From a virus: DNA of 22,219 nucleotides. The stretch is taken from positions 1-22,219 of the IMG/VR virus record IMGVR_UViG_3300035660_000092; one strand, written 5' to 3'. Under the pieces are notes generated by a model. That model saw only the letters and a program-made list of their open reading frames with translations, did not search any database and had not been told where the DNA came from. This document shows positions 2,927 through 19,632 of the stretch, piece after piece; position 1 is the first letter of the stretch, and each line of letters begins with the position of its first letter. A program made the position numbers and the translations under genes.

Positions 2927-3811
2927 ATGCAAAGTTTGAGCAGAGTTGGAATGGATACCGGCCGTTTGACCACAGAGGAAACGACGTACATTGACAACCG
3001 CATTGTCGACGCTGTATACGCGCAGACTATCGGGCGCAACCTTTTCCCCGTATTCACTTTGCCTAACGCGGGTATCATGACTGTTCGAGGCTACAAGCGC
3101 GGTAAGATGTCAGCTGCCAGAATCAGCCTTCATGGCCAAGGCGGTTCAAAGGATCGCACCGAGAAAACTTCCTTCGACATCACCGTCCCCGTCATAGAAA
3201 AGGAATTTGACATTGAGTGGCGAGACCTTGAGGCAAGCCGTGGCAGTGGCATGCCCATAGACATAGGCGACGGCGAGGATGCAGCAAGAAGAGTTGCTGA
3301 GGATGAGGACAAACTGTTGATCACAGGCGAATACTCAGGATGGCGTGCCTGTGGCGTCGAAGGCTTAGCAACGGCAACGGGACGAAATACAAAGGCAAGT
3401 GCAGGCGCATGGCCAGCCAACAGCTTGACCGATCTCAGTGCCGCTATAGGTGAATTGGAGGCTGACGGTCACACACGGAGCAACGCATATGCGTGTGTGC
3501 TGCGCAGTTCTTGGGCTGCAAAACTCAGGGCACTCGTGACCAACACAGCTGAAAAGTGGACAAACGTCATTAAAGACCTGTTTCCGGCCGGAATCTACGT
3601 CAGTGACAGTCTCTACAGCAGCGCTGGACTTACGACGAGCGCACTGGCTCTGGAACTTGGGCAAGACAATTTTGAAATGGTAATCGGTCGAGACATTGAA
3701 ACACGCAAGACTCCTGACAAGTACGGCAACCTCGAGTGCGTAGTCCGTGAAGTCGTGGCACCAAGAATCAAGCGCCCCACAGCTATCTGCGAGTTAACAG
3801 CACTGACCTAA
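2927..3811 (+). CDS. Major capsid protein, HK97 fold, encapsulin-like
   Basis: 294 residues. It has the order of elements seen in encapsulin/Linocin-M18-like capsid proteins. An N-terminal helix follows TTEETTYIDNRIVDAVY. A glycine-rich strand region (TVRGYKRGKMSAARISLHG) leads to a long E-loop-like segment with VPVIEKEFDIEWRDLEASRG. Then come AARRVAEDEDKLLITGEY and GVEGLATATG. The A-domain follows, with LRSSWAAKLRAL, GIYVSDSLYSS, LELGQDNFEMVIGRDIET, and a final basic strand, REVVAPRIKRPTAI. In family-1 encapsulins the segment F-hydrophobic-hydrophobic-RDLEA-RG and the ED-LLI-GE stretch are the hallmark. It forms the icosahedral shell. A T-rich tract follows the stop. Confidence 0.78.
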   Translation: MQSLSRVGMDTGRLTTEETTYIDNRIVDAVYAQTIGRNLFPVFTLPNAGIMTVRGYKRGKMSAARISLHGQGGSKDRTEKTSFDITVPVIEKEFDIEWRDLEASRGSGMPIDIGDGEDAARRVAEDEDKLLITGEYSGWRACGVEGLATATGRNTKASAGAWPANSLTDLSAAIGELEADGHTRSNAYACVLRSSWAAKLRALVTNTAEKWTNVIKDLFPAGIYVSDSLYSSAGLTTSALALELGQDNFEMVIGRDIETRKTPDKYGNLECVVREVVAPRIKRPTAICELTALT

Positions 3812-4138: not shown

Positions 4139-4774
4139 ATGTATCACATGCAGTATCGCGATAGGGTACTGGAAGGCATAAGGCAGGCTTGTGAGGGTGC
4201 TCAGCGTCTGGCGGAGTTCCAGGTTTTCGTAAATGAGGCTACAAAGAAGCAACTTCTTGCTGGCGTGGTTGAAGCTACCAACATGCTTGTGGATAAGTGT
4301 ATCCGTGAAGGTTTTGATTATTTATGGATCGTTGAGGCTGACGTGGTTGTGCCTCGCGGCGCGTTTTTGAGGCTTTTCAGGCCCTTGGCTGACATTAATT
4401 TGGGGTTTTATCCGAACCATCGGGTTGATTTGAGGTTGATGGCTGGCTACTTCAAGCTTGGTCGGCAAGGCAACCCTCCGACAGTTGTCAGCGTTACCGA
4501 TGTGCCAGCCTTGAAGGGCAAGGTTTTCACGGGTATGGTCTGCGCTGGGATCGGCTGCGCCCTGATTCACAGGCGAGTGTTCGAGGCTGGATTAGATTTC
4601 AAGTACGACCCGCAACTGTACACGGCAAAAGTGGGCGTGCACGACCAGCTTTTCCTCTACCTAGCCCAATGGGAATACGAGTTTTCTGTCTACTTGCATG
4701 GTGACGTTATTTGTGGACATCTGCCGGAGTGGCCACTTGAGAGACTTTCAGCCGTTTTGGAGGCTTCAGGGTGA
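4127..4774 (+). CDS. Glycosyltransferase-like protein (GT-A fold), probably made by frameshift
   Basis: The reading frame gives 215 residues from a TTG at 4127, or 223 from the slip site at 4103. Upstream, KVKVLVGIPLTEP reads like the first beta strand of a GT-A Rossmann half. No ATG or GTG start precedes it in this frame, and the TTG lacks a ribosome site. Other fold features are the helix YRDRVLEGIRQACEGA, the metal-site-like segment FDYLWIVEADVVVPRGAF (DxD-like EAD), a mid-domain MVCAGIGCALIHRRVFE, and the late acidic/His elements GVHDQLFLYLAQ and GDVICGHLPEW. These resemble GT2-like transferases. It would transfer a sugar from a nucleotide donor. The target is unknown, but the next gene, overlapping by 4 nt (GTGA), encodes a collagen-like fibre. 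Confidence 0.62.
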   Translation: MTEPMYHMQYRDRVLEGIRQACEGAQRLAEFQVFVNEATKKQLLAGVVEATNMLVDKCIREGFDYLWIVEADVVVPRGAFLRLFRPLADINLGFYPNHRVDLRLMAGYFKLGRQGNPPTVVSVTDVPALKGKVFTGMVCAGIGCALIHRRVFEAGLDFKYDPQLYTAKVGVHDQLFLYLAQWEYEFSVYLHGDVICGHLPEWPLERLSAVLEASG

Positions 4775-5859
4775 GCGAGGATGCTGCCGAGGTTTTGAGG
4801 CGAAACCGTGAACTGCTGCAAGCTCAGAGAGATAGCCAGGAGAGCGAGCGACTCCTAGAGAAGCTTCCGCAAGGGCACGGTTCAGGGCTTAATGCGGATA
4901 TGGTTGACGGGATGCACGCCTCGGAGATTCTTGCCAAGGCTCCAGGTAAGCGAGGCGGAGGAGGCGCAACAGGGGGCGGGACACCAGGGCCCCAAGGTCC
5001 TCAAGGCGAAGTCGGTCCAGTCGGTCCGCAAGGTGAACAGGGAGCTCAGGGTATTCAGGGCGCTCAGGGGATCCAGGGTGAAACTGGACCGCAAGGCGCT
5101 AAGGGCGACAAAGGGGATACAGGGTCTCAAGGTCAGCAGGGTATCCAAGGCGAGCAGGGTATTCAAGGTCAAACTGGCGCGACAGGTGCGAAGGGTGATA
5201 AGGGCGATAAAGGCGACACTGGCGACGCGGGACCTAACACTGTCACAACATCAACAACCACGAATCTTACTGGCTTGTTGAAGGGCGATGGCGCACATGT
5301 AGGTGTTTCATCTTCAACTGAGGCTGATGTGGCTGACGCCATAACCAAGAAACACGCCAAAAACGCGGATACAGATTTAGAAAGTACCTTTGAAGCCACC
5401 TTTGAAAAAGTTGCCAATAAAGACGCGGCATCTGGCTATGCGGGATTATCTGCAGGGTCCAAGCTTGCGACTTCTCAGATGCCAACGGCAACAATCAAGA
5501 CTACGTTAACTTTGGCTGACGCTTCCGACCCTTTGACAACAGGCACAGATAAAGCTCCGACGCTTCTTTCTCCGGGCACTTTGACAATAACGAAGGTGAA
5601 GCTTGTGGTCAAGACGGCGCCGGTGGGAGCTGCCATAATCGTTGACGTCAACAAGGGGGGAACCACGATATTTACTAATCAGGCCCATCGACCGCAGATC
5701 GCCGCGGGAGCCACGACGGGAGAAACAAGCACCATTGACGTTTCAGGCCTTGTCGAAGATGACAAATTAACGTTTGACATCGACCAGGTGGGTTCTTCGA
5801 CTCCAGGCAGCAAGATCACGGTTGAAGTTGTCACAAGTCAGGCGGTGGCCTTTTCATGA
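4771..5859 (+). CDS. Collagen-like fibre protein (virion fibre)
   Basis: 362 residues from a GTG that overlaps the previous stop (GTGA). Residues 1-35 form a charged helix. GLNADMVDGMHASEIL (about 39-54) matches the short A-x-VDG-hydrophobic-AS motif that often precedes fibre shafts in phage tail fibres. Residues 73-156 are 28 uninterrupted Gly-X-Y triplets, rich in GPQ, GIQ, GAK, GDK and GDT (DNA 4987-5238), which predicts a trimeric collagen helix about 24 nm long at 0.29 nm per residue. Residues 230-362 form a beta-rich head domain (KVKLVVKTAPVGAAIIVDVN). Its place between the capsid and connector genes suggests a capsid or neck fibre rather than a baseplate fibre. The DNA of the triplet region is necessarily repetitive. 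Confidence 0.75.
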   Translation: MSEDAAEVLRRNRELLQAQRDSQESERLLEKLPQGHGSGLNADMVDGMHASEILAKAPGKRGGGGATGGGTPGPQGPQGEVGPVGPQGEQGAQGIQGAQGIQGETGPQGAKGDKGDTGSQGQQGIQGEQGIQGQTGATGAKGDKGDKGDTGDAGPNTVTTSTTTNLTGLLKGDGAHVGVSSSTEADVADAITKKHAKNADTDLESTFEATFEKVANKDAASGYAGLSAGSKLATSQMPTATIKTTLTLADASDPLTTGTDKAPTLLSPGTLTITKVKLVVKTAPVGAAIIVDVNKGGTTIFTNQAHRPQIAAGATTGETSTIDVSGLVEDDKLTFDIDQVGSSTPGSKITVEVVTSQAVAFS

Positions 5860-6811: not shown

Positions 6812-7189
6812 TTGGTTACTGTACTGCCGAGCGAGGTCCGTGAACGTATCAATGTTTCCGCAGCTGATGCGCCTGATGACGTCGTGAATAGGTTTATCAC
6901 GGCTGCCGGAGTCACCGTTGAAGTCGAGATCGGCGAGATAGTCGATCCCACAAATTGCTCTAAGGCTCAGGCTGAGGCTATTCGCAACCTTGCAGCAATA
7001 TACTGCGCTTGCAGGATCACGGGAGGCTCAGCTCAGGGCCTAAGCTTCCGTGTTGGTGATTTGGCTGTCAACGAATCCAGCAGCTCCAGTTCTGGCCTCA
7101 GTGGCGGCAACCTTCAGTTTCTGCTTGATCAAGCTCTGAAAATTATCGAGAGTTTGAAGGGACCGCAGTTCAGGGTGGTGAACGCCTAG
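6812..7189 (+). CDS. Head-tail connector protein (HK97 gp6-like)
   Basis: 125 residues from a TTG; there is no ATG or GTG in a better position, and the preceding 90 nt are non-coding. The protein is mostly helical: LPSEVRERINVSAADAPDDV, then VVNRFITAAGVTVE, and SKAQAEAIRNLAAIYCACRI. Then come a Ser-rich loop and a final helix, LQFLLDQALKIIESLKG. The helical bundle with a P-E-VR-R start and a middle LAAIYAC helix is typical of gp6/gp15-type adaptor proteins, which form the ring under the portal. The order portal, capsid, connector, closure is conserved in siphoviruses. The next gene begins one base after the stop. Confidence 0.6.
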   Translation: MVTVLPSEVRERINVSAADAPDDVVNRFITAAGVTVEVEIGEIVDPTNCSKAQAEAIRNLAAIYCACRITGGSAQGLSFRVGDLAVNESSSSSSGLSGGNLQFLLDQALKIIESLKGPQFRVVNA

Positions 7190-7190
7190 C

Positions 7191-8813
7191 ATGGGCACCG
7201 TTCCGAGCGTCTATTACGAGTACATAATGCACTATGCGCCTTGGTTTTATGTCTTGACTACGGCGATGGCTGCGGACCCGCCAGGAGGACAAAAAGACAT
7301 TCTCGTCACAGATGGTATGCAATTCTCTGCCAACATGCCAGCAGAAATTAAGGATTCCGCTCACAGCGAATGGAACGAGGTTGATTCGGTTCTTGGCAAC
7401 GTTGTTACCATGAAAAACAATCTAGCCTACACTTATTATGTCGCAAAAGGAGGCACTGTGGATCACCCGGATATCAGTTTCATGAAAGGTGCTTTTCCGG
7501 CTGCTTTTGCCATCGAATTCTTGTATGAAGCCTATTCCGCATCTCAGTATTTACTCCTGCAGGCCACGATTCTCGCGAAGATCGTAGAGCTCACCGATTG
7601 GCTCTTGACTCAGCAGTGCACAGATCCAGCGCGGAAGGCGTATGGCGGGTTTGCTTCAGCTGACGGCGGGACAGAGTTTTACGCGATTGACGCGGGTCGT
7701 GTGATTCCTGCTCTGCTTAAGGCTTATGCTCTTGTCGGGACGAGCGGATATCTTGATGCCGCTAAGCTTGCGGGCTACACTTTTTTGTATACCATGCAGC
7801 ATGAACCCTCAAACTTGGGGATTCATGATAGGTACTATGGTGGCTTCGCTACGAAAGTGACCATTGCAGACGCTTGGGACGTGACCATGAGCGTCGAAAA
7901 TCTGTATTGTTTGATTGGCTTGAAAATGCTGGCTAATACTTACGATGTGGCTAATGCCTCGCGGTATATCGCGATGATGGCTGATGCTTCCGACTTTCTG
8001 CGTGACGGTTTCGAACAGATCTACCTCTACTACAGTCCGCCGCCTTCTGGTCTTGGTCGATGGTGGCGTGTGGGTCTACAAGACACTGAGATCTATGACG
8101 ATCCCGTGAGTTTTGCGCTCTTGGGCTTGTACATTTATGAGGCTTGGAGCCTGACATGCCAGCGCGTCTACAACTTTCTTCAAGCAATTCGCGCTAGTGG
8201 CCAATATCCTGCCTACTGGCCCGAAATTTGCTGGCCCGGTTACGTCGATGTGATTAGTCGATTCCCGGCTTGTGCATACTATGACGCGATCACGACTGGG
8301 ATTCTGGGAAAAATCCGACAGGAACGAGACCCGCCAAGCTGCAAACTCGCCCATCAAGTCGTTGAAAAGTACGCAGATGAATTCATGTACTGGGGACCAA
8401 TTTTTAGCGATTACAGCCCGATAACGGGTCAGAAAGCGATGGCTAACGTCACCTGGCTCGCAAGAATGTTTCTCAATTACGAGGAGCCTCTCACTCGGTT
8501 CACGAGGATTTTGAATAGCAAGGGCGAGGCTGTGCTCTTGTATCCCGTGCGGCAAGCGGTTGAAACCGTATCATACGGCGAGCCCTTAGACATTTTTGCG
8601 GTTGTTTCGCCCGTGCGGGTTGAAGAGGTCTTGCTCGAGGCGGGATATCTCTTGAACGACTATCTAGCGTTTTACACGTTTGTGCCGGTGCGCAACCATG
8701 ATAAAATCAGGCGAAAAGGCGAGGACTACGAAATTCAGACGTTGCAGGCCTTCACCTACGAGAATCAGACCATCTATTTCAAATCGATTGCTAGGAGGTT
8801 GGTTGCTACCTAA
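7191..8813 (+). CDS. Fusion: alpha/alpha-toroid (glycosidase-like) domain plus head-closure domain
   Basis: 540 residues. Residues about 100-430 have the repeated helix-pair pattern of alpha/alpha-toroid enzymes (six-hairpin glycosidases, terpenoid-cyclase-like lyases): AIDAGRVIPALLKAYALVG with a following YLDAA helix, SVENLYCLIGLKMLANTYD, and PVSFALLGLYIYEAWS. Between the helices are aromatic and acidic loops (KAYGGFASADGGTEFY, HDRYYGGFATK, DTEIYDDP) that could form a sugar-binding cleft. Residues about 432-540 are different. TRFTRILNSKGEAVLLYPV, GEPLDIFAVVSPVRVEEVLL and a terminal RNHDKIRRKGEDYEIQTLQA have the small beta-barrel pattern of phage head-closure/stopper proteins. That matches the gene's place directly after the connector. 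So a conserved neck protein carries a large, probably glycan-active, N-terminal domain. Catalytic residues cannot be assigned from sequence alone. Confidence 0.6.
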   Translation: MGTVPSVYYEYIMHYAPWFYVLTTAMAADPPGGQKDILVTDGMQFSANMPAEIKDSAHSEWNEVDSVLGNVVTMKNNLAYTYYVAKGGTVDHPDISFMKGAFPAAFAIEFLYEAYSASQYLLLQATILAKIVELTDWLLTQQCTDPARKAYGGFASADGGTEFYAIDAGRVIPALLKAYALVGTSGYLDAAKLAGYTFLYTMQHEPSNLGIHDRYYGGFATKVTIADAWDVTMSVENLYCLIGLKMLANTYDVANASRYIAMMADASDFLRDGFEQIYLYYSPPPSGLGRWWRVGLQDTEIYDDPVSFALLGLYIYEAWSLTCQRVYNFLQAIRASGQYPAYWPEICWPGYVDVISRFPACAYYDAITTGILGKIRQERDPPSCKLAHQVVEKYADEFMYWGPIFSDYSPITGQKAMANVTWLARMFLNYEEPLTRFTRILNSKGEAVLLYPVRQAVETVSYGEPLDIFAVVSPVRVEEVLLEAGYLLNDYLAFYTFVPVRNHDKIRRKGEDYEIQTLQAFTYENQTIYFKSIARRLVAT

Positions 8814-9898
8814 TGGTCCGTAACTGGAAGCTAGTACCGCCCAAGCTCAGAAAGGGGTCGTGGAATAGTCTCATCAACGATTTCGTCGAGCTCTCACCCG
8901 TATACGTGCAGAAAAACAACGGCGAAGACCTACTACAAACGGTTGCAGCCGATTATCCCGAGCGAAAAATAAAGATTCCCCCCGGAACCTTTATAGTCGA
9001 TGAACCGCTCTGTCCCGTCGGAACCGACGATGAAGAAGCAACGATTTTAGGCACAAAAGAAGGCATTATTGAGGGTTGCGGCGAAAGAACTATAATAAAA
9101 GCTGCTGCAGGTGTGAGTCCAACCGTAAAGTACGCGCACTATCACGGCCACGGAACATACGCGCAAAGCCGCCCCGTCTTGCGAGATCTCTGCATAGACG
9201 CAAATGGAAACCAAGACTGCCTTGAGCTTGACAATGTCAAGCATGGCGAGTTTAAACACTTGCTGCTCAAGAATTTTACAAGATATGGGCATCACTCACT
9301 AGGATACTCAACGACAACCAGCGGTCATAGCTACTGGAATCTACTGCGAGATGTCAGGGTTTCCACCGGAGCTTGTACCGCTGCCCTATGCGCTGAAAAA
9401 AACGCGATTGACAACTTTTATGAACACATCTGGGGAACGGCGAACGGCATCGGTTTTCTATGCAAAGGAGACGGAGGGCACATTCTGAGGGACCTATGGC
9501 TTGTTGATGTAATCAACGAAATAAAGTTACACGCCATCGACGATGATATTTACGACATAACAATTCAGAACGCCCGTATCGACACCCCAACAGATCATGG
9601 TATTCTCATGGAACTAGACAACCACAGCATCAACCGCGTAAAAGTCCTATCGCCACACTTTTTCAAGATTCCCCTCGCGAAAGATAACTTCAACTTTGTT
9701 GGCTTCGCAGAGAAAGGCTTTGCACATTTGTTAATCGACGGTCCTGACGATGATACATCTGTGCCAAGATGGAACTATAACTGGAATGGCGTTGGCACAT
9801 TCCCAACGACAAATCAGATTCGCACCAATAAATTGACCCTCGGGTCAAGCGGGAAAAATAACAACGTTCCGGCGGGGTGCTTCACATGCGAGGCTTAA
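8813..9898 (+). CDS. Right-handed beta-helix (pectate-lyase-like) spike protein
   Basis: 361 residues. The ATG shares one base with the previous TAA. RKIKIPPGTFIVDEPLCPVG is the typical first coil of phage-type pectate-lyase-3 domains (Y-x-hydrophobic-PxGTF-hydrophobic). It is followed by ATILGTKEGIIEGCGERTII and PVLRDLCIDANGNQDCLELD. Short repeating strands continue (WNLLRDVRVSTGACTAALCA, DDIYDITIQNARID, NHSINRVKVLS), as expected for stacked beta-helix coils. Virion proteins with this fold bind or cleave cell-surface polysaccharides. It lies between the head-closure and tail-completion genes, so it may be mounted on the neck rather than the tail tip. Active-site residues are not identifiable by eye. 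Confidence 0.62.
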   Translation: MVRNWKLVPPKLRKGSWNSLINDFVELSPVYVQKNNGEDLLQTVAADYPERKIKIPPGTFIVDEPLCPVGTDDEEATILGTKEGIIEGCGERTIIKAAAGVSPTVKYAHYHGHGTYAQSRPVLRDLCIDANGNQDCLELDNVKHGEFKHLLLKNFTRYGHHSLGYSTTTSGHSYWNLLRDVRVSTGACTAALCAEKNAIDNFYEHIWGTANGIGFLCKGDGGHILRDLWLVDVINEIKLHAIDDDIYDITIQNARIDTPTDHGILMELDNHSINRVKVLSPHFFKIPLAKDNFNFVGFAEKGFAHLLIDGPDDDTSVPRWNYNWNGVGTFPTTNQIRTNKLTLGSSGKNNNVPAGCFTCEA

Positions 9899-9902
9899 TG
9901 CC

Positions 9903-10967
9903 ATGCCAGACTACACGTATGTTGGTGACTTCGATGGAGAAGATTTTGATGCGGAGGACTTTTGGGTGAGCGCTGAGCTTGAGGATCCTGTTGCGACTCT
10001 TCTGCGGTTGATTACCTCGAGGATTCGTGTGGTAAAGGATAGCGGTTCGGTTGCCAGCATTTTGGCTACTGAGGCAGCCTACGATCGGGAGCTGTTGAAG
10101 GAGTATGATGCTCAAATCACGCTCGCTCTCGACCCGAATGTCGGAGTTCTGGACCAGAAACTCGAGCTCTCGGGACGTCTGAGACGCAGGTACATGGGCT
10201 TCAAGTGCAGTATCCATGCTGTGGATAAGTCAGCTCCTGGCAGTGATTCGGCCAGAGTAATGCGGAACAAAGTGACTGCACAGATCGAGGCTATTATACG
10301 AGAAAACCGAAACCTGCCCTATCAAACCGTCTACAACTTCAGTGGGCTCGGATATCCGAGTGGAGACCCTCACAAGGCCTTTGCTGCAGGTGCAGTAACT
10401 GACCTTGCGCCGTCGAGCACGTCGTGGGCTGAACTCTCCGTAGCGAATTATCAGAAAATCTGGTCCAGCGACGACGTTAGACACTCGAAAAGCACGACCG
10501 TGAGCGGTGAGTATGCTTTGATGCTTTTCAGGTTCAAGATCCAGCCTCGAGAGGCCTGTGTCAAGAAAGTTGTTATCAGCTTTGAGGGTTATGGCCTCTC
10601 CCCGAACGGCAACGGCGTACGGATGAAACTCTGGAATCACGAGTCTTCAGTTTGGGAACAGGAGCAATGGAACATTTGGGGCTCGGACATGACCCTAATA
10701 ATTACGCTGACGTCGGAGAGCGTGGATTACATCGACTCAAACGGCTACCTTTACGTTCTGGTCAAAACGCGGACCGCAAGCAACGGCGTCGATCCCGCGG
10801 TGCTATACTGCGATTTCGTTGAGTGCACGGTCCAGGTTTATGGGATCTCCCATGTTGACGTCATCACTTATCGAAACACCGAGGTGACCGATGTGAAGCC
10901 ACACGTTTTCCAGACCGAGTTTCTGCTGAAAGGCTGGCTTTTCGAAACAATCTCAGGAGCATTCTAG
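9903..10967 (+). CDS. Tail-completion/terminator-like protein with inserted beta-sandwich
   Basis: 354 residues. The N-terminal tip is acidic (GDFDGEDFDAEDF). Residues 28-145 have the pattern of tail-completion proteins: ATLLRLITSRIRVVKDSGS, then YDAQITLALDP and KLELSGRLRRRYMGFKCSIH, a helix RVMRNKVTAQIEAIIREN and NLPYQTVYNFSG. The last 35 residues (VDVITYRNTEV, FQTEFLLKGWLFETI) look like the end of that same fold. Residues about 165-312 break it with a beta-sandwich-like block: YALMLFRFKI, VKKVVISFEGYG, GVRMKLWNHESSVWE, MTLIITLTSE and YLYVLVKTRT. This resembles carbohydrate-binding jelly rolls. The gene's place just before the tail tube gene supports a neck or tail-terminator role. Confidence 0.55.
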   Translation: MPDYTYVGDFDGEDFDAEDFWVSAELEDPVATLLRLITSRIRVVKDSGSVASILATEAAYDRELLKEYDAQITLALDPNVGVLDQKLELSGRLRRRYMGFKCSIHAVDKSAPGSDSARVMRNKVTAQIEAIIRENRNLPYQTVYNFSGLGYPSGDPHKAFAAGAVTDLAPSSTSWAELSVANYQKIWSSDDVRHSKSTTVSGEYALMLFRFKIQPREACVKKVVISFEGYGLSPNGNGVRMKLWNHESSVWEQEQWNIWGSDMTLIITLTSESVDYIDSNGYLYVLVKTRTASNGVDPAVLYCDFVECTVQVYGISHVDVITYRNTEVTDVKPHVFQTEFLLKGWLFETISGAF

Positions 10968-10986: not shown

Positions 10987-11853
10987 ATGGTTGAAACATA
11001 TGGAGTGGACGAAGAGCGGTTCTATTTCGTGACCGAAAACGTGCTTGGAACTGTGCCGACGAATCCGGCGATGCTCAGCGTGCCCACTGATCCCATTGAC
11101 CCGGGTTTCGACCCGGGCAACTTGAAGTTGAGAGGACCCGGAAGTTATGATCTGCAAGCGATAAAAAAGGGTCTTCGGAAGCCCAGCTTGAAGATAGGTT
11201 ATGCGTTGCCCTCCGATGCGCCGATTGAGCTTTTGCAGTGGGCGAAAATGGATCTGGACAAGAGCCTCAGTTGCCAAGTAATATACTACAAGGGACTTTT
11301 TGCGTCTGCCTCGGACATTCTATCCCTACTATATAAGGGGATGCGAATCAGCAAAGTGTCGGTCCAGTGTGGCATCGAAGACGTAATCAAAGCGACAATG
11401 GAGCTTGAGGGGCAGGATCTTGAGACTGGAACCGCGAAGATTTCAGGAGCAAGCTATGCAGACCACTCGGGAGCGGTGCCCTTCCACGAGAGCTACGTAA
11501 AGAAGGCCACGAGCACACTGGAACGTGTGATTGATTGGAAATTCGATATCCTAAACCACCCGAGAAGGGTTCCCGTCATTCGCAGCACAAACGGACACCT
11601 TGCGAAGTACATTCCATTTGGCACTAGGGACTTGTCCGGTGAACTGGCTTTTGAGTTCGAAAGTAAGGAAGAGCTGGATGAGGCTCTAGCCGATGCGGAG
11701 TTTACTCTGGAATTCGGGCTAGGTGGCACGTGCAAGGCGGTTTTCACTGCATGCAAATGGGATACCATAACTCACACGAAATGGTTGGAAGACCTGATCT
11801 GCTGCAAGGCCCCGTTTGTCGCCAAGGGCCCTGTAGCGATCAGTGCCAGTTAG
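10987..11853 (+). CDS. Tail tube protein
   Basis: 288 residues from the ATG at 10987. The start GVDEERFYFVTENVLGTVP followed by NPAMLSVPTDPIDPGFDPGN and KGLRKPSLKIGYALPSDA is characteristic of archaeal and phage siphovirus tail-tube proteins. After it come alternating strands: SLSCQVIYYKGLF, MRISKVSVQCGIEDVIKATM and RDLSGELAFEFESKEELDEA. Subunits stack as hexameric rings to form the tail lumen. There is a single such gene and no sheath protein nearby, so the tail is probably non-contractile. Order with the tail-assembly chaperone and tape measure agrees. Confidence 0.72.
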   Translation: MVETYGVDEERFYFVTENVLGTVPTNPAMLSVPTDPIDPGFDPGNLKLRGPGSYDLQAIKKGLRKPSLKIGYALPSDAPIELLQWAKMDLDKSLSCQVIYYKGLFASASDILSLLYKGMRISKVSVQCGIEDVIKATMELEGQDLETGTAKISGASYADHSGAVPFHESYVKKATSTLERVIDWKFDILNHPRRVPVIRSTNGHLAKYIPFGTRDLSGELAFEFESKEELDEALADAEFTLEFGLGGTCKAVFTACKWDTITHTKWLEDLICCKAPFVAKGPVAISAS

Positions 11854-12468: not shown

Positions 12469-12539
12469 ACGTGATGGACCAGATGGCGGAAGAAGAAAGG
12501 GCAAGAGCGGAGAAAGAGGCGAAAAAACATGGCCGTTGA
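12336..12539 (+). CDS. -1 frameshifted extension of the tail assembly chaperone (gpT-like part)
   Basis: The -1 frame is open across the end of the short form and continues to TGA at 12537-12539. It encodes a protein-like stretch: CQTFGWTPTQLGNQPARTIQ, followed by EFCVILNVMDQMAEEERARA and a basic end, EKEAKKHGR. FGWTPxxL followed by a helix and a charged tail is what T-type extensions look like. No ATG, GTG or TTG opens the protein-like part before GTG 12471, so a frameshift is needed. T_TTT_TTA at 12330-12336 is the only canonical in-phase heptamer I found in the overlap, and gives a 178-residue fusion. The first about 18 codons after it are Arg-rich and less convincing, so a slip nearer 12390 at a non-canonical site remains possible. 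Confidence 0.5.
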   Translation, partial: TRAARRGKPHPALSEFRLCQTFGWTPTQLGNQPARTIQEFCVILNVMDQMAEEERARAEKEAKKHGR

Positions 12540-12900
12540 AGTAACCTGCGACGTGGAAGGCATGGAGGAATTCCAAGCGGCGATGCAGAGGTTTGACGCT
12601 GCAATGCAGAACCAAGTATACCGCTTTTTGGCTAGCTGGGCTGCCGACGTGAAGGCTGCTGCAATGCGAAATGCTCGAGTTAGATCGGGATATCTGCGCA
12701 GTAAGATCTACGCTACGATAAAAGAGTGGGTTGCTGAGTTGGGTGCTGATACCACTTACGCGTTCTTCATCGAGTTCGGTACCAGGTACATGCAGGCTCA
12801 TCCGTACTTGTGGCCTGCGATTCAGGAGTACCTTCCGAGCCTTGAAATGAACATCATTGGAGCCTTGGAACAGGCGAAATCGGAGGCTGGCTTATCATGA
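12529..12900 (+). CDS. HK97 gp10-like tail/neck completion protein
   Basis: 123 residues, starting 11 nt inside the chaperone extension. It starts VEVTCDVEGMEEFQAAMQRF. A helix with AADVKAAAMRNARVRSGYLR follows, then strands ending in DTTYAFFIEFGTRYMQAHPY and an LWPAI helix. V-RSGxLRxSI followed by Y-x-xFIEFGT-xMxAHPYLxPA is the signature of the HK97 gp10 family, involved in joining head and tail. In most siphoviruses this gene precedes the tail tube gene. Here it sits between the chaperone and the tape measure, which is an unusual position. It overlaps the next gene by 4 nt (ATGA). Confidence 0.72.
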   Translation: MAVEVTCDVEGMEEFQAAMQRFDAAMQNQVYRFLASWAADVKAAAMRNARVRSGYLRSKIYATIKEWVAELGADTTYAFFIEFGTRYMQAHPYLWPAIQEYLPSLEMNIIGALEQAKSEAGLS

Positions 12901-16359: not shown

Positions 16360-16777
16360 GGAAGAGACTAAACTGCGAGATCTCCTCTCCACGAGAGAAC
16401 CCGTCAGTTCGATCGCTAAAGCTCTCGGGAAAACAAAGGGTTCCATCTATGCGAAGATTGACGAGATGGGGATTGTGTTAAAAGAAGAAGAGACGCCTGC
16501 ACGAAAAGGTCTCGCTTCTTCTTCTAACTTGAAGCTGCCTCGTCAGCTGCCAAGCATCGAGAAAGCGATGAAGCGCCTCGTGCGTGCACTGAATGAGTTG
16601 GAGAAGCCGGGCCTTGACATCGTTGAGGTGCAACGGTTGCGGGGCATCATTCAGGGTGTGAAGATCTACAAGGACATTTTCGCGGACTACGTCGATTATC
16701 GGGCTATTGAGGATATGCTGCTTGATTTGAGGCAGAAATATGAACAGCTTGTTCAGAAGACGACGAAGAAAGCTTGA
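16331..16777 (+). CDS. terS: Terminase small subunit
   Basis: 148 residues from a GTG with a strong site (AAGGAGGAA, about 6 nt before). Residues 6-50 form a SANT/Myb-like helix-turn-helix (PWSREEETKLRDLLSTREPV, then SIAKALGKTKGSIYAKIDEM). That is the DNA-recognition domain of many terminase small subunits. The second half is helical with long coiled-coil-like helices (IEKAMKRLVRALNELEKPG, YRAIEDMLLDLRQKYEQL), suited to forming a ring. It recognises the packaging start site on the concatemer and hands it to the large subunit. The next gene, with a 38-nt overlap, is the large subunit. Confidence 0.68.
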   Translation: MTKGKPWSREEETKLRDLLSTREPVSSIAKALGKTKGSIYAKIDEMGIVLKEEETPARKGLASSSNLKLPRQLPSIEKAMKRLVRALNELEKPGLDIVEVQRLRGIIQGVKIYKDIFADYVDYRAIEDMLLDLRQKYEQLVQKTTKKA

Positions 16778-18191
16778 CCTCAGAAGGTTTCTGAGGGAAG
16801 AGGACAGCCTCCTCAGTGACGTGAGATTTAGAGAGATCGCTGAAGACGAGAAGGTCACAGAGTTGCAGTTCGACGCTGTCCAGTTCTTCCGTCAAGTTCT
16901 GGGGTTCGAACCTTACGAGTACCAGAAGGAATTCATCAAACTGTTCGAAGAGAACCAATTTCTCGCGGCGCGTTGGTGTAGGCAGAGCGGCAAAAGCTGG
17001 ACCGTCTCAGCTCTATTACTGAATTACGCGCTCAAACACCCAGACAGCTACATAGCTGCTGTCGGTCCTTCGTGGCGTCAAACCAAACTTAACATCAGGC
17101 GCATAACCTATTTTCTGCGCAAGATCCCACCCGACTTGTACTATAAGCCTCAGCGCACGGTACTCAGGTTCACGAACGGCAGCGTGATCGAGGCTTTTCC
17201 TAACAATCCAGAAACGATACGTGGGCCAACATTGAGCGTTATATGGTGGGATGAGAGCGCATGGACTCCTTGCGATGCCGACCTTTACGACGCGATTCTC
17301 TTCACGTTGGGGACGACGAACGGAAAACTGATCTGCACGAGCACGCCGTGGAATAGCGATTCGCTGTTCTGGAAGATCTGTAACCATAAGGACTTCAGTG
17401 ATTTTGCGAGGCATCACGTCACTTGGGAGCAGGCTCAGGAGCCGAACGGACCGCTGAAAAAGGCCATTCTGGACAAGATCAGGAAGCAGTTCCGCGAGGA
17501 TCCCGCACGGTGGCGTCGTGAGATGGAGGCTGAGTGGGCTGAGGATGAGAACGTTTGGCTGCCGCAGAGCTTGATTGTGTCGTGCGTGGGCACTGAGAAA
17601 AATTGTGGCGAGGATCTGCAGCCTTGGAACCCTGAACAAGGAAATCAAGGCGATCTCTTCGCTGGCTTAGATCTCGCCCAAGTGCGAGATTATTGCGTTT
17701 TCAGCGTGTTAGAACGATTGAATGATAAACTTTTCCTGCGACACTTGAAGATTTTCATGCAGCCGACGAAGTACGCTCACGTTCTGGGTTACATAAAGAC
17801 CTTGCAGGATCGTTGGGGCGGCTTCCAAAAAATCCGGGTTGACTTCACGAAGGAGGGCCCGAGCATCATCAGCGACATGGAAGATGCGGGAATCAAGAAC
17901 GCTGAAGGTGTTACATTTTCTGTGCCGCGCAAGAGCGAAATGGCCAGCTTGCTCAAGCAGCGGATGGGTGATCAGAAGCTTTTCTATCCGCTCTTGACGT
18001 GGGAGAAGCCTTACAGAGGCGATATCTGCAGCGAGTTGAACCTGGAGCGATATGAATTGCGCAAGGACGGAGCCCAAGCGTTCAGCCATCCCAATGGTAC
18101 GCACGACGATGTTTTCTGGTCCATTGCCCTGGGCGTTTATGCCACTGTCGCCATGAAAACCTTCGATCTAGAGGCTATACGCTTTGGTTAG
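16740..18191 (+). CDS. terL: Terminase large subunit (packaging ATPase and nuclease)
   Basis: 483 residues, a typical length. The basic N terminus (RRRRRKLDLRR) precedes an adaptor, GFEPYEYQKEF. ATPase motifs: Walker A WCRQSGKSW (about 79-87), Walker B SVIWWDESAW (about 166-175) with the catalytic Glu, and coupling motif ICTSTPWN (about 198-205). The RNase-H-like nuclease follows, with acidic residues in FAGLDLAQVRD (about D310), IRVDFTKEG (about D367) and GTHDDVFWSI (about D455/456). It translocates DNA into the procapsid and cuts it. Unusually, the terminase genes follow the tail genes here instead of preceding the portal. That is consistent with a circularly permuted or circular map. The stop overlaps the next start by 8 nt. 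Confidence 0.92.
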   Translation: MNSLFRRRRRKLDLRRFLREEDSLLSDVRFREIAEDEKVTELQFDAVQFFRQVLGFEPYEYQKEFIKLFEENQFLAARWCRQSGKSWTVSALLLNYALKHPDSYIAAVGPSWRQTKLNIRRITYFLRKIPPDLYYKPQRTVLRFTNGSVIEAFPNNPETIRGPTLSVIWWDESAWTPCDADLYDAILFTLGTTNGKLICTSTPWNSDSLFWKICNHKDFSDFARHHVTWEQAQEPNGPLKKAILDKIRKQFREDPARWRREMEAEWAEDENVWLPQSLIVSCVGTEKNCGEDLQPWNPEQGNQGDLFAGLDLAQVRDYCVFSVLERLNDKLFLRHLKIFMQPTKYAHVLGYIKTLQDRWGGFQKIRVDFTKEGPSIISDMEDAGIKNAEGVTFSVPRKSEMASLLKQRMGDQKLFYPLLTWEKPYRGDICSELNLERYELRKDGAQAFSHPNGTHDDVFWSIALGVYATVAMKTFDLEAIRFG

Positions 18192-19632
18192 ACACCGCGA
18201 GCCTCTCAGGATCCACAGGTTCCGGCGCGTCTACGATAGGACAGAGGGCAAGTTTCGCTTTCAAATAAGCTACTCCACATCTGCAGAACTCACGCCGCGG
18301 ACCATTGCGGTTGCTCAGGCTTTCGGTCTAGGCATTGACGAGGGAAGGAAATTCACGGTTCTCGATACCGAGCTAAAAATAGGAGTTGGCGACGTCGTTT
18401 ATATCACTGGCGACAGTGGCAGCGGCAAAAGCGTTCTGTTGAATGCCCTTGAAAAAGATATCAGGCGAGGCATGCGGGAAACCTGCATCAATGTTGCAGA
18501 CGTGAAATTGCAGCACAATAACCCGTTGATCGAAACGGTGGGCGAAACCGTCGAAGAGGGCTTGGAGCTGCTAAGTAGGGTCGGTTTGAATGATGCTTTT
18601 CTCTTCCTTCGTACTTTTCGAGAGCTGTCGGATGGTCAAAAGTATCGCTACCGTATCGCCAAGATGGTCGAGAGTGGAGCGCGGTTCTGGGTGATGGATG
18701 AGTTTGCGGCTACGCTGGATCGTGATACGGCTAAGATCGTGGCTTTCAACCTTCAGAAGCTCGCCAAGGCTCTCGGCAGGTCTGTAATCGTGGCAACGAC
18801 GCACAAAGATCTGTTTGAGGATTTGAAGCCTAGCGTATACGTGCACAAGCGTTTTGGCAAGGAAATCACCGTAAACTATTACCCGAATGAGCCTGCAGGA
18901 GAGTGCAGCCTAGCCAAAGAGATGCAGGTCGAGGTTGGCAGCCGAAAGGATTGGCACGGTCTGGAGGAATTCCATTACCGGAGCCGAAACCTGGGAGCTG
19001 CTAGGAAAATCTTCTGTCTAAAGCGCGGGGAAGAGCTCTGCGGCGTGATCGTGTACTGTTATCCGCCGATGAACTGCGCCGGAAGAAATAAGGTCTTGCC
19101 AAGGATGGCTGTGAAGGAGATGAATGAGAAGGTGAGTATAATTTTGAGGGTTGTAGTCCATCCCAAGTACCGCACTATTGGGTTGGGTGTTAGGCTGATT
19201 CGCGAGACGTTGCCGCTTGTGGGCACAAGGTACGTTGAGATGTCTGCCGTCATGGCCAAATATAACCCGTTCGCTGAGAAGGCAGGCATGCGCAAAGTCG
19301 TTGAGCAAGCGCCCGCGAAAGAAGCGGTTAAGATATCCAAGGTTCTGAGCGATGTTGGTTTTAACCTGCGGTTGCTGAGCAGCGAAAGGTATGTGTGTAG
19401 TGTACTATATAACTTGAGCCCTGAGCAACTGGCCAGAGTCAAACAGGTCTTGGCGAAGAATGATAATCCGCGTCTGCGGAAAGAGCTTGGTGATCGGCAC
19501 AGGCCTTTCGGAAACTCGGCTGCTTATGTGGCTGCAGTTCAAGGCGCGGATTCTGCAAATTTGGCCAGGGTTATCCGTGTGGTCGGGATGCTTTTGCAGA
19601 CGAAGGTTTACCTGTTCTGGGGTAAACCATAA
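18184..19632 (+). CDS. ABC-type ATPase fused to GNAT acetyltransferase
   Basis: 482 residues from a TTG inside the end of terL, with no gap, so the two are probably co-translated. ABC elements: Walker A GDSGSGKS (76-83), signature-like LSDGQKYRYRIAK (about 148-160), Walker B FWVMDEFAATLD with the catalytic Glu (about 168-179), and switch His in ATTHKD (about 207). There are no membrane segments, so it is soluble. Residues about 255-375 form a GNAT fold: FCLKRGEELCGVIVYCYPP, then IILRVVVHPKYRTIGLGVRL, containing the acetyl-CoA loop R-x-x-G-x-G, and MSAVMAKYNPFAEKAGM. The last about 100 residues are helical. The substrate is unknown. Linkage to the terminase suggests a packaging-related or DNA-end-related role, but modification of host components is possible. 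Confidence 0.8.
   Translation: MVRHREPLRIHRFRRVYDRTEGKFRFQISYSTSAELTPRTIAVAQAFGLGIDEGRKFTVLDTELKIGVGDVVYITGDSGSGKSVLLNALEKDIRRGMRETCINVADVKLQHNNPLIETVGETVEEGLELLSRVGLNDAFLFLRTFRELSDGQKYRYRIAKMVESGARFWVMDEFAATLDRDTAKIVAFNLQKLAKALGRSVIVATTHKDLFEDLKPSVYVHKRFGKEITVNYYPNEPAGECSLAKEMQVEVGSRKDWHGLEEFHYRSRNLGAARKIFCLKRGEELCGVIVYCYPPMNCAGRNKVLPRMAVKEMNEKVSIILRVVVHPKYRTIGLGVRLIRETLPLVGTRYVEMSAVMAKYNPFAEKAGMRKVVEQAPAKEAVKISKVLSDVGFNLRLLSSERYVCSVLYNLSPEQLARVKQVLAKNDNPRLRKELGDRHRPFGNSAAYVAAVQGADSANLARVIRVVGMLLQTKVYLFWGKP

Follow-up and report, generated by a model that had tools for sequence, protein, structure and literature searches.

Known head-closure proteins (stoppers) of tailed viruses are about 100–120 amino acids (aa) long. 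It has been reported that the stopper of Staphylococcus phage 812 carries an extra beta-sandwich only (PMC12886913). In lactococcal 936 phages, carbohydrate-binding modules (CBMs) and pectin/alginate/esterase-like modules are carried by a separate neck-passage collar protein (PMC6669499), so that an earlier note on this DNA is only partly right in calling the neck an unusual place for glycan degradation. In the haloarchaeal virus HFTV1, the head turrets bear a predicted polysaccharide deacetylase, for which a role in modifying host glycans ahead of tail binding has been proposed; in the passages covered, no such domain is mentioned on the head–tail connector (PMC12494034). As for the viruses of Bathyarchaeia, the main texts of PMC11705971 and PMC10848311 mention neither this toroid domain nor neck proteins. 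A toroid built into a stopper was found in no report on bacterial or archaeal viruses, which is weak evidence, the coverage of the literature being partial.

The protein described here resembles each of these systems in part. Like the stoppers of tailed phages (Hc1; SPP1 gp16 type), it has a C-terminal beta-barrel of about 108 aa, matches to Hc1 PHROGs and the corresponding gene order; unlike them, it has an enzyme-fold domain of about 430 aa ahead of the closure domain. Like the neck-passage structure (NPS) of 936/P335 phages, it would bring carbohydrate-related modules to the neck in multiple copies, here by analogy, but the NPS is a protein of its own, optional and unfused to the stopper, built on a BppU-like base with a coiled coil, and its folds are CBM, pectin/alginate or esterase-like, whereas the fold here is a toroid. 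Like the turret head protein gp31 of HFTV1, it brings a carbohydrate-active-type domain into a virion structural protein of an archaeal tailed virus, although gp31 lies on the capsid turrets and has a polysaccharide-deacetylase fold. What appears to be new is the fusion of a toroid into the stopper, while carbohydrate modules at the neck were already known as separate proteins of lactococcal phages.

The window, that is, the whole stretch of 22,219 nucleotides analysed, is a virus record of 22 kb in which profile searches reveal the standard morphogenesis module of a tailed virus. Its main features are as follows:

429-1868: protease (profile search).
2927-3811: major head protein (profile search).
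6812-7189, plus strand: head-tail connector (adaptor), immediately 5′ of the focal ORF (Phage_connect_1, 17.6 bits, sub-threshold; upstream in relatives).
7191-8813, plus strand: focal ORF of 540 aa, made up of an alpha/alpha toroid that has a beta insert and of a head-closure domain (frame, structure model, family).
9903-10967, plus strand: g9903, the conserved next neck gene, probable tail terminator that ends in a beta-sandwich (terminator role from position and reading, no profile).
10987-11853, plus strand: tail tube protein (Phage_tube_2, 1.2e-8; phrog_290).
12529-12900: Neck1/tail-completion relative (profile search).
16740-18191: terminase (profile search).

Of 197 distinct complete ORFs of the family, 164 are preceded by the connector and 185 are followed by g9903, with a median gap of 0 bases. 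The gene is thus placed between the connector and the terminator or tail tube, the position that the earlier note had expected of a head-closure protein. The window is an exception to the family order, having an extra ORF of 361 aa (8813-9898) between the focal gene and g9903. It reads as a right-handed beta-helix (pectate-lyase-like), has no Pfam or PHROG match and only one relative in viral contigs (L312), and is possibly another neck or surface protein. Relatives of g9903 match GH114_assoc of Pfam below threshold. Elsewhere in the window, a collagen-repeat, tail-fibre-like protein is encoded after the head genes and before the connector (4771-5859), and the terminase has as its neighbour an ABC-type ATPase with a fused GNAT acetyltransferase-like domain (18184-19632).

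The focal ORF is an intact frame of 540 aa. Taken alone, its protein has no match in Pfam, PHROGs or PDB; tblastn against phages gave no match, and against plasmids a chance match only (E 4). AlphaFold2 (AF2) reached a pLDDT of 33 from the single sequence, whereas the model built on an alignment of 52 diverse relatives has a pLDDT of 94.9 and a pTM of 0.93. This model has about 12 toroid helices at residues 6-15 and 101-428, followed by a beta-rich domain at 446-536; the helices (6-15, 101-115, 118-141, 165-182, 185-208, 235-251, 253-275, 303-317, 321-331, 366-379, 381-393 and 417-428) are twelve, the number expected of an (alpha/alpha)6 toroid. A single-domain protein is ruled out by the two domains of the model, and an assembly artefact by more than 230 complete two-domain ORFs. 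Relatives are numerous in viral contigs and occur in prokaryote genomes too. The protein thus consists of an (alpha/alpha) toroid in its N-terminal part and a head-closure domain at its C-terminus, fold and position both being well supported, and the boundary at about 431/432 proposed in the earlier note was borne out. The parts within the ORF are as follows:

7191-7256, plus strand: residues 1-22, first toroid helix (6-15), kept in members without the beta insert (AF2, structural alignments from residue 1, family alignment).
7257-7469, plus strand: residues ~23-93, Rider-like beta module between toroid helices 1 and 2 (PF24149 sub-threshold; strands in 20-93).
7470-8483, plus strand: residues ~94-431, main part of the toroid, of (alpha/alpha)6 type (AF2, structure searches, C5-epim_C).
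7689-7691, plus strand: codon of D167 (Asp in 207 of 208 distinct members).
8097-8102, plus strand: codons of D303-D304, an Asp-Asp pair at the start of an inner helix (303-317), invariant in 208 of 208.
8214-8285, plus strand: residues 342-365 with invariant Y342, W348, Y351, Y363, Y364 and D365 (208-member alignment).
8484-8810, plus strand: residues 432-540, head-closure (stopper) domain (PHROG 939/161; BFVD; beta-barrel strands in 446-536).

The head-closure domain, which the earlier note had recognised in about 108 C-terminal residues, is confirmed by profiles and structures. These 108-109 aa match phrog_939 'head protein' in 26 of 52 members (best E 2.8e-8) and phrog_161 'head closure Hc1' in 9 of 52 (best E 1.6e-3), and 'head-tail joining' and 'closure knob' proteins of BFVD, about 110 aa long, were matched at E of about 3e-5 to 1e-4, being assigned to the C-terminus by the length and names of the targets, as the table gives no aligned ranges. 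With hhalign, no signal was obtained between the closure domain and the single sequences of HK97 gp7, other HK97 neck proteins or K1ind1 proteins, and the closure domain of a relative had no tblastn match in phages. No stopper appears among the PDB structure matches listed for the full model, because toroid matches fill that list.

The best 50 PDB chains for the model, with VIA-align Z of 28.7 to 23.6 and over model residues 1-432, are nearly all alpha/alpha-toroid sugar enzymes, in agreement with the prediction of the earlier note, and the top match (Z 28.7) has 304 aligned residues at 3.2 A. Together with the twelve helices, this gives a closed toroid of about six helical hairpins; of the first ~430 residues that had been read as toroid, residues ~23-93 turned out to be otherwise, forming the inserted beta module. 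The top Foldseek/VIA matches (Z 23-29) are GH76, AGE/cellobiose 2-epimerases and unsaturated glucuronyl hydrolase, although a match of toroid fold is by itself no demonstration of function. The domain is like these enzymes and C5-epimerase in fold and, in several members, in passing the C5-epim_C cut-off, and unlike them in its identity of 6-13%, in its unmatched catalytic residues and in belonging to a viral structural protein.

At the sequence level, C5-epim_C (PF06662, D-glucuronyl C5-epimerase) of Pfam is matched by 43 of 52 members, and its curated cut-off of 23.3 bits is passed at 25.3-25.6 by L076, L087 and a Bathyarchaeia provirus, the window's own protein lying below it. Weak additional matches to GH76, GH88, GH127 and pectate lyase were found among members. 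When the toroid profile was compared with PDB sequences, the top matches were three C5-epimerases at a non-significant E of 0.19-0.21, and in the weak alignment (E 0.19) Y468, one of the catalytic tyrosines of the D-glucuronyl C5-epimerase (zebrafish numbering), faces a non-Tyr residue. In 208 members, the toroid has no invariant His, the best being H212 (87%) and H292 (81%). That no His is conserved above 87% argues against an AGE-type mechanism, and the AGE/cellobiose 2-epimerase type, whose catalytic histidine pair is absent, was rejected. GH76 mannanase has a catalytic Asp-Asp pair in its toroid cleft and the present family has the invariant D303-D304, a comparison of residue type alone. 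No catalytic residue set of any known enzyme family was matched in the toroid. It thus appears near C5-epimerase at the superfamily level, C5-epimerase being the best, though weak, relative by sequence, and no reaction can be named, as the weak alignment does not bring out the catalytic Tyr and no His is invariant. The earlier note's glycan-active enzyme is therefore plausible but unproven: the fold family and the invariant acidic/aromatic residues fit one, while the defining residues of no catalytic family were matched. Weak cellular relatives occur in Bathyarchaeia genomes (L307, L308 and L309), and the neighbours of the first two are glycosyltransferase-like genes, named by reading and without a profile.

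The alignment of 208 distinct members shows which residues never vary: W291, D303, D304, Y342, W348, Y351, Y363, Y364, D365 and W401, while D167, R170 and Y239 are altered in one or two members. Median identity is higher in the toroid (0.584) than in the closure domain (0.488), and 91% of pairs show the toroid ahead. Inner toroid helices are more conserved than outer ones (0.764 against 0.647), as is partly expected from burial, since buried residues are conserved in any toroid. Conserved polar/aromatic residues lie on the cleft side in 18 of 30 cases, where 163 of 338 residues lie, which is non-significant by itself. Taken whole, the protein is conserved to about the same degree as the tail tube (median identity 0.57 against 0.60).

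Bathyarchaeia are abundant sediment archaea, and they are the host group to which the family points. Of 26 loci in prokaryote genomes, 22 are titled Candidatus Bathyarchaeota and one Crenarchaeota; the remaining three belong to bins named Gallionella, Bipolaricaulis and Njordarchaeum, and may reflect misbinning or other hosts. In 257 genomes of the Bathyarchaeia class, taken as the class of one of the gene-bearing genomes, the gene occurs in 40, in about 60 copies, with 2-6 in several genomes, and the provirus BATPV1 (JAAKEZ010000002) has it too (L101), so that it can serve as a marker for Bathyarchaeia proviruses. The virus of the window would likewise have its host in Bathyarchaeia. One decayed provirus has a toroid fragment that continues in frame into a different, tail-like protein (L311:1887-3167).

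The neck of these viruses probably bears sugar-acting or sugar-binding domains arranged in a ring, which could aid attachment to, or breach of, the sugar-coated host surface. In the reading that we prefer, with a probability of roughly 0.5, the protein is the head-closure protein of a tailed virus of Bathyarchaeia whose toroids, by analogy, stand outside the neck ring and bind and modify glycans of the host envelope. The C-terminal beta-barrel would be part of the neck, lying between the connector ring and the tail; the N-terminal two thirds would form a toroid outside the ring, with the same copy number as the stopper (six by analogy), where stoichiometry and exposure are assumed from bacterial phages. 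The toroid would bind and cleave, epimerise or otherwise modify host-envelope glycans during adsorption or entry, with the S-layer glycoprotein or another surface polysaccharide as candidate target, and the Rider-like beta module and other inserts would be accessory modules for carbohydrate contact. Going further, it may tentatively be proposed that the stopper ring is itself a multi-copy glycan-processing enzyme, uniting genome retention and envelope breaching in one protein. If true, the stopper as an enzyme would be a virion architecture for which no description was found in bacterial or archaeal viruses. The family, of roughly 200 members, places a sugar-enzyme fold at the neck throughout one archaeal-virus lineage; it bears on how viruses of uncultivated sediment archaea cross the cell surface, and supplies a defined domain and residues to test.

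The best surviving alternative, though an unlikely one, is that the toroid is a catalytically dead, lectin-like collar which binds glycans for reversible side-on adsorption, as lactococcal neck-passage structures do. The neck CBMs of 936 phages bind host cells weakly and in an ancillary role (PMC6669499), HFTV1 attaches head-first (PMC9973310), the catalytic signature of no enzyme family is confirmed in the toroid, and the associated beta modules resemble carbohydrate-contact domains. However, binders of variable host glycans tend to vary, yet this protein is nearly as conserved as the tail tube; moreover, conservation is higher in the toroid than in the closure domain, and the invariant D303, D304 and D365 are typical of catalysis.

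It is improbable that the toroid has a purely structural role in the neck, serving decoration, stabilisation or assembly with no glycan contact. The neck decoration proteins of Staphylococcus phage 812 are thought to reinforce the adaptor–stopper junction (PMC12886913), and the fusion is almost never lost, as expected of an essential structural component, but a spacer would have no need of the conserved acidic/aromatic set, and the outer surface is tolerant, since the beta insert comes and goes and one relative (L028:5892-7979) has an extra beta-rich insert of about 156 aa in the toroid loop after residue ~220.

Least probable is an action of the toroid in or on the infected cell before assembly, for example altering host glycoproteins for virion release or superinfection block, with the stopper fusion secondary, for although a hydrophobic N-terminal segment precedes the conserved toroid start in 8 of 203 members and one archaeal contig (L111/L310) has this segment and the toroid without the closure domain, such forms are a small minority, nearly all intact members keep the closure domain, and the gene is locked in the neck module. 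The hydrophobic segment is membrane-like in L082, L124, L126, L132, L135, L139 and L144; the contig without the closure domain (L111:503-1819), binned as Njordarchaeum, is a possible stand-alone toroid form.

The beta module at residues ~23-93, placed between toroid helices 1 and 2 by the AF2 strands and the family alignment, resembles the 'Rider' domain of K1-lyase (PF24149) below threshold, with a best E of 1.4e-4 over members and, among the matches listed, 14.6-16.8 bits against a cut-off of 27. It is missing from L030, L083, L085, L086 and L087, and 119 of 233 complete two-domain ORFs have no match to it. The module recurs in tail-tube proteins of related viruses (L126, L129 and L195) and in hub-like (baseplate hub) proteins of relatives (L015, L038, L072 and L182), so that one module is distributed over several surfaces of these virions. 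Tail-tube proteins with the module inserted are found at L126:8276-9352 and L129:9312-10382, and hub-like ones at L038:5705-8989 and L015:13083-15995.
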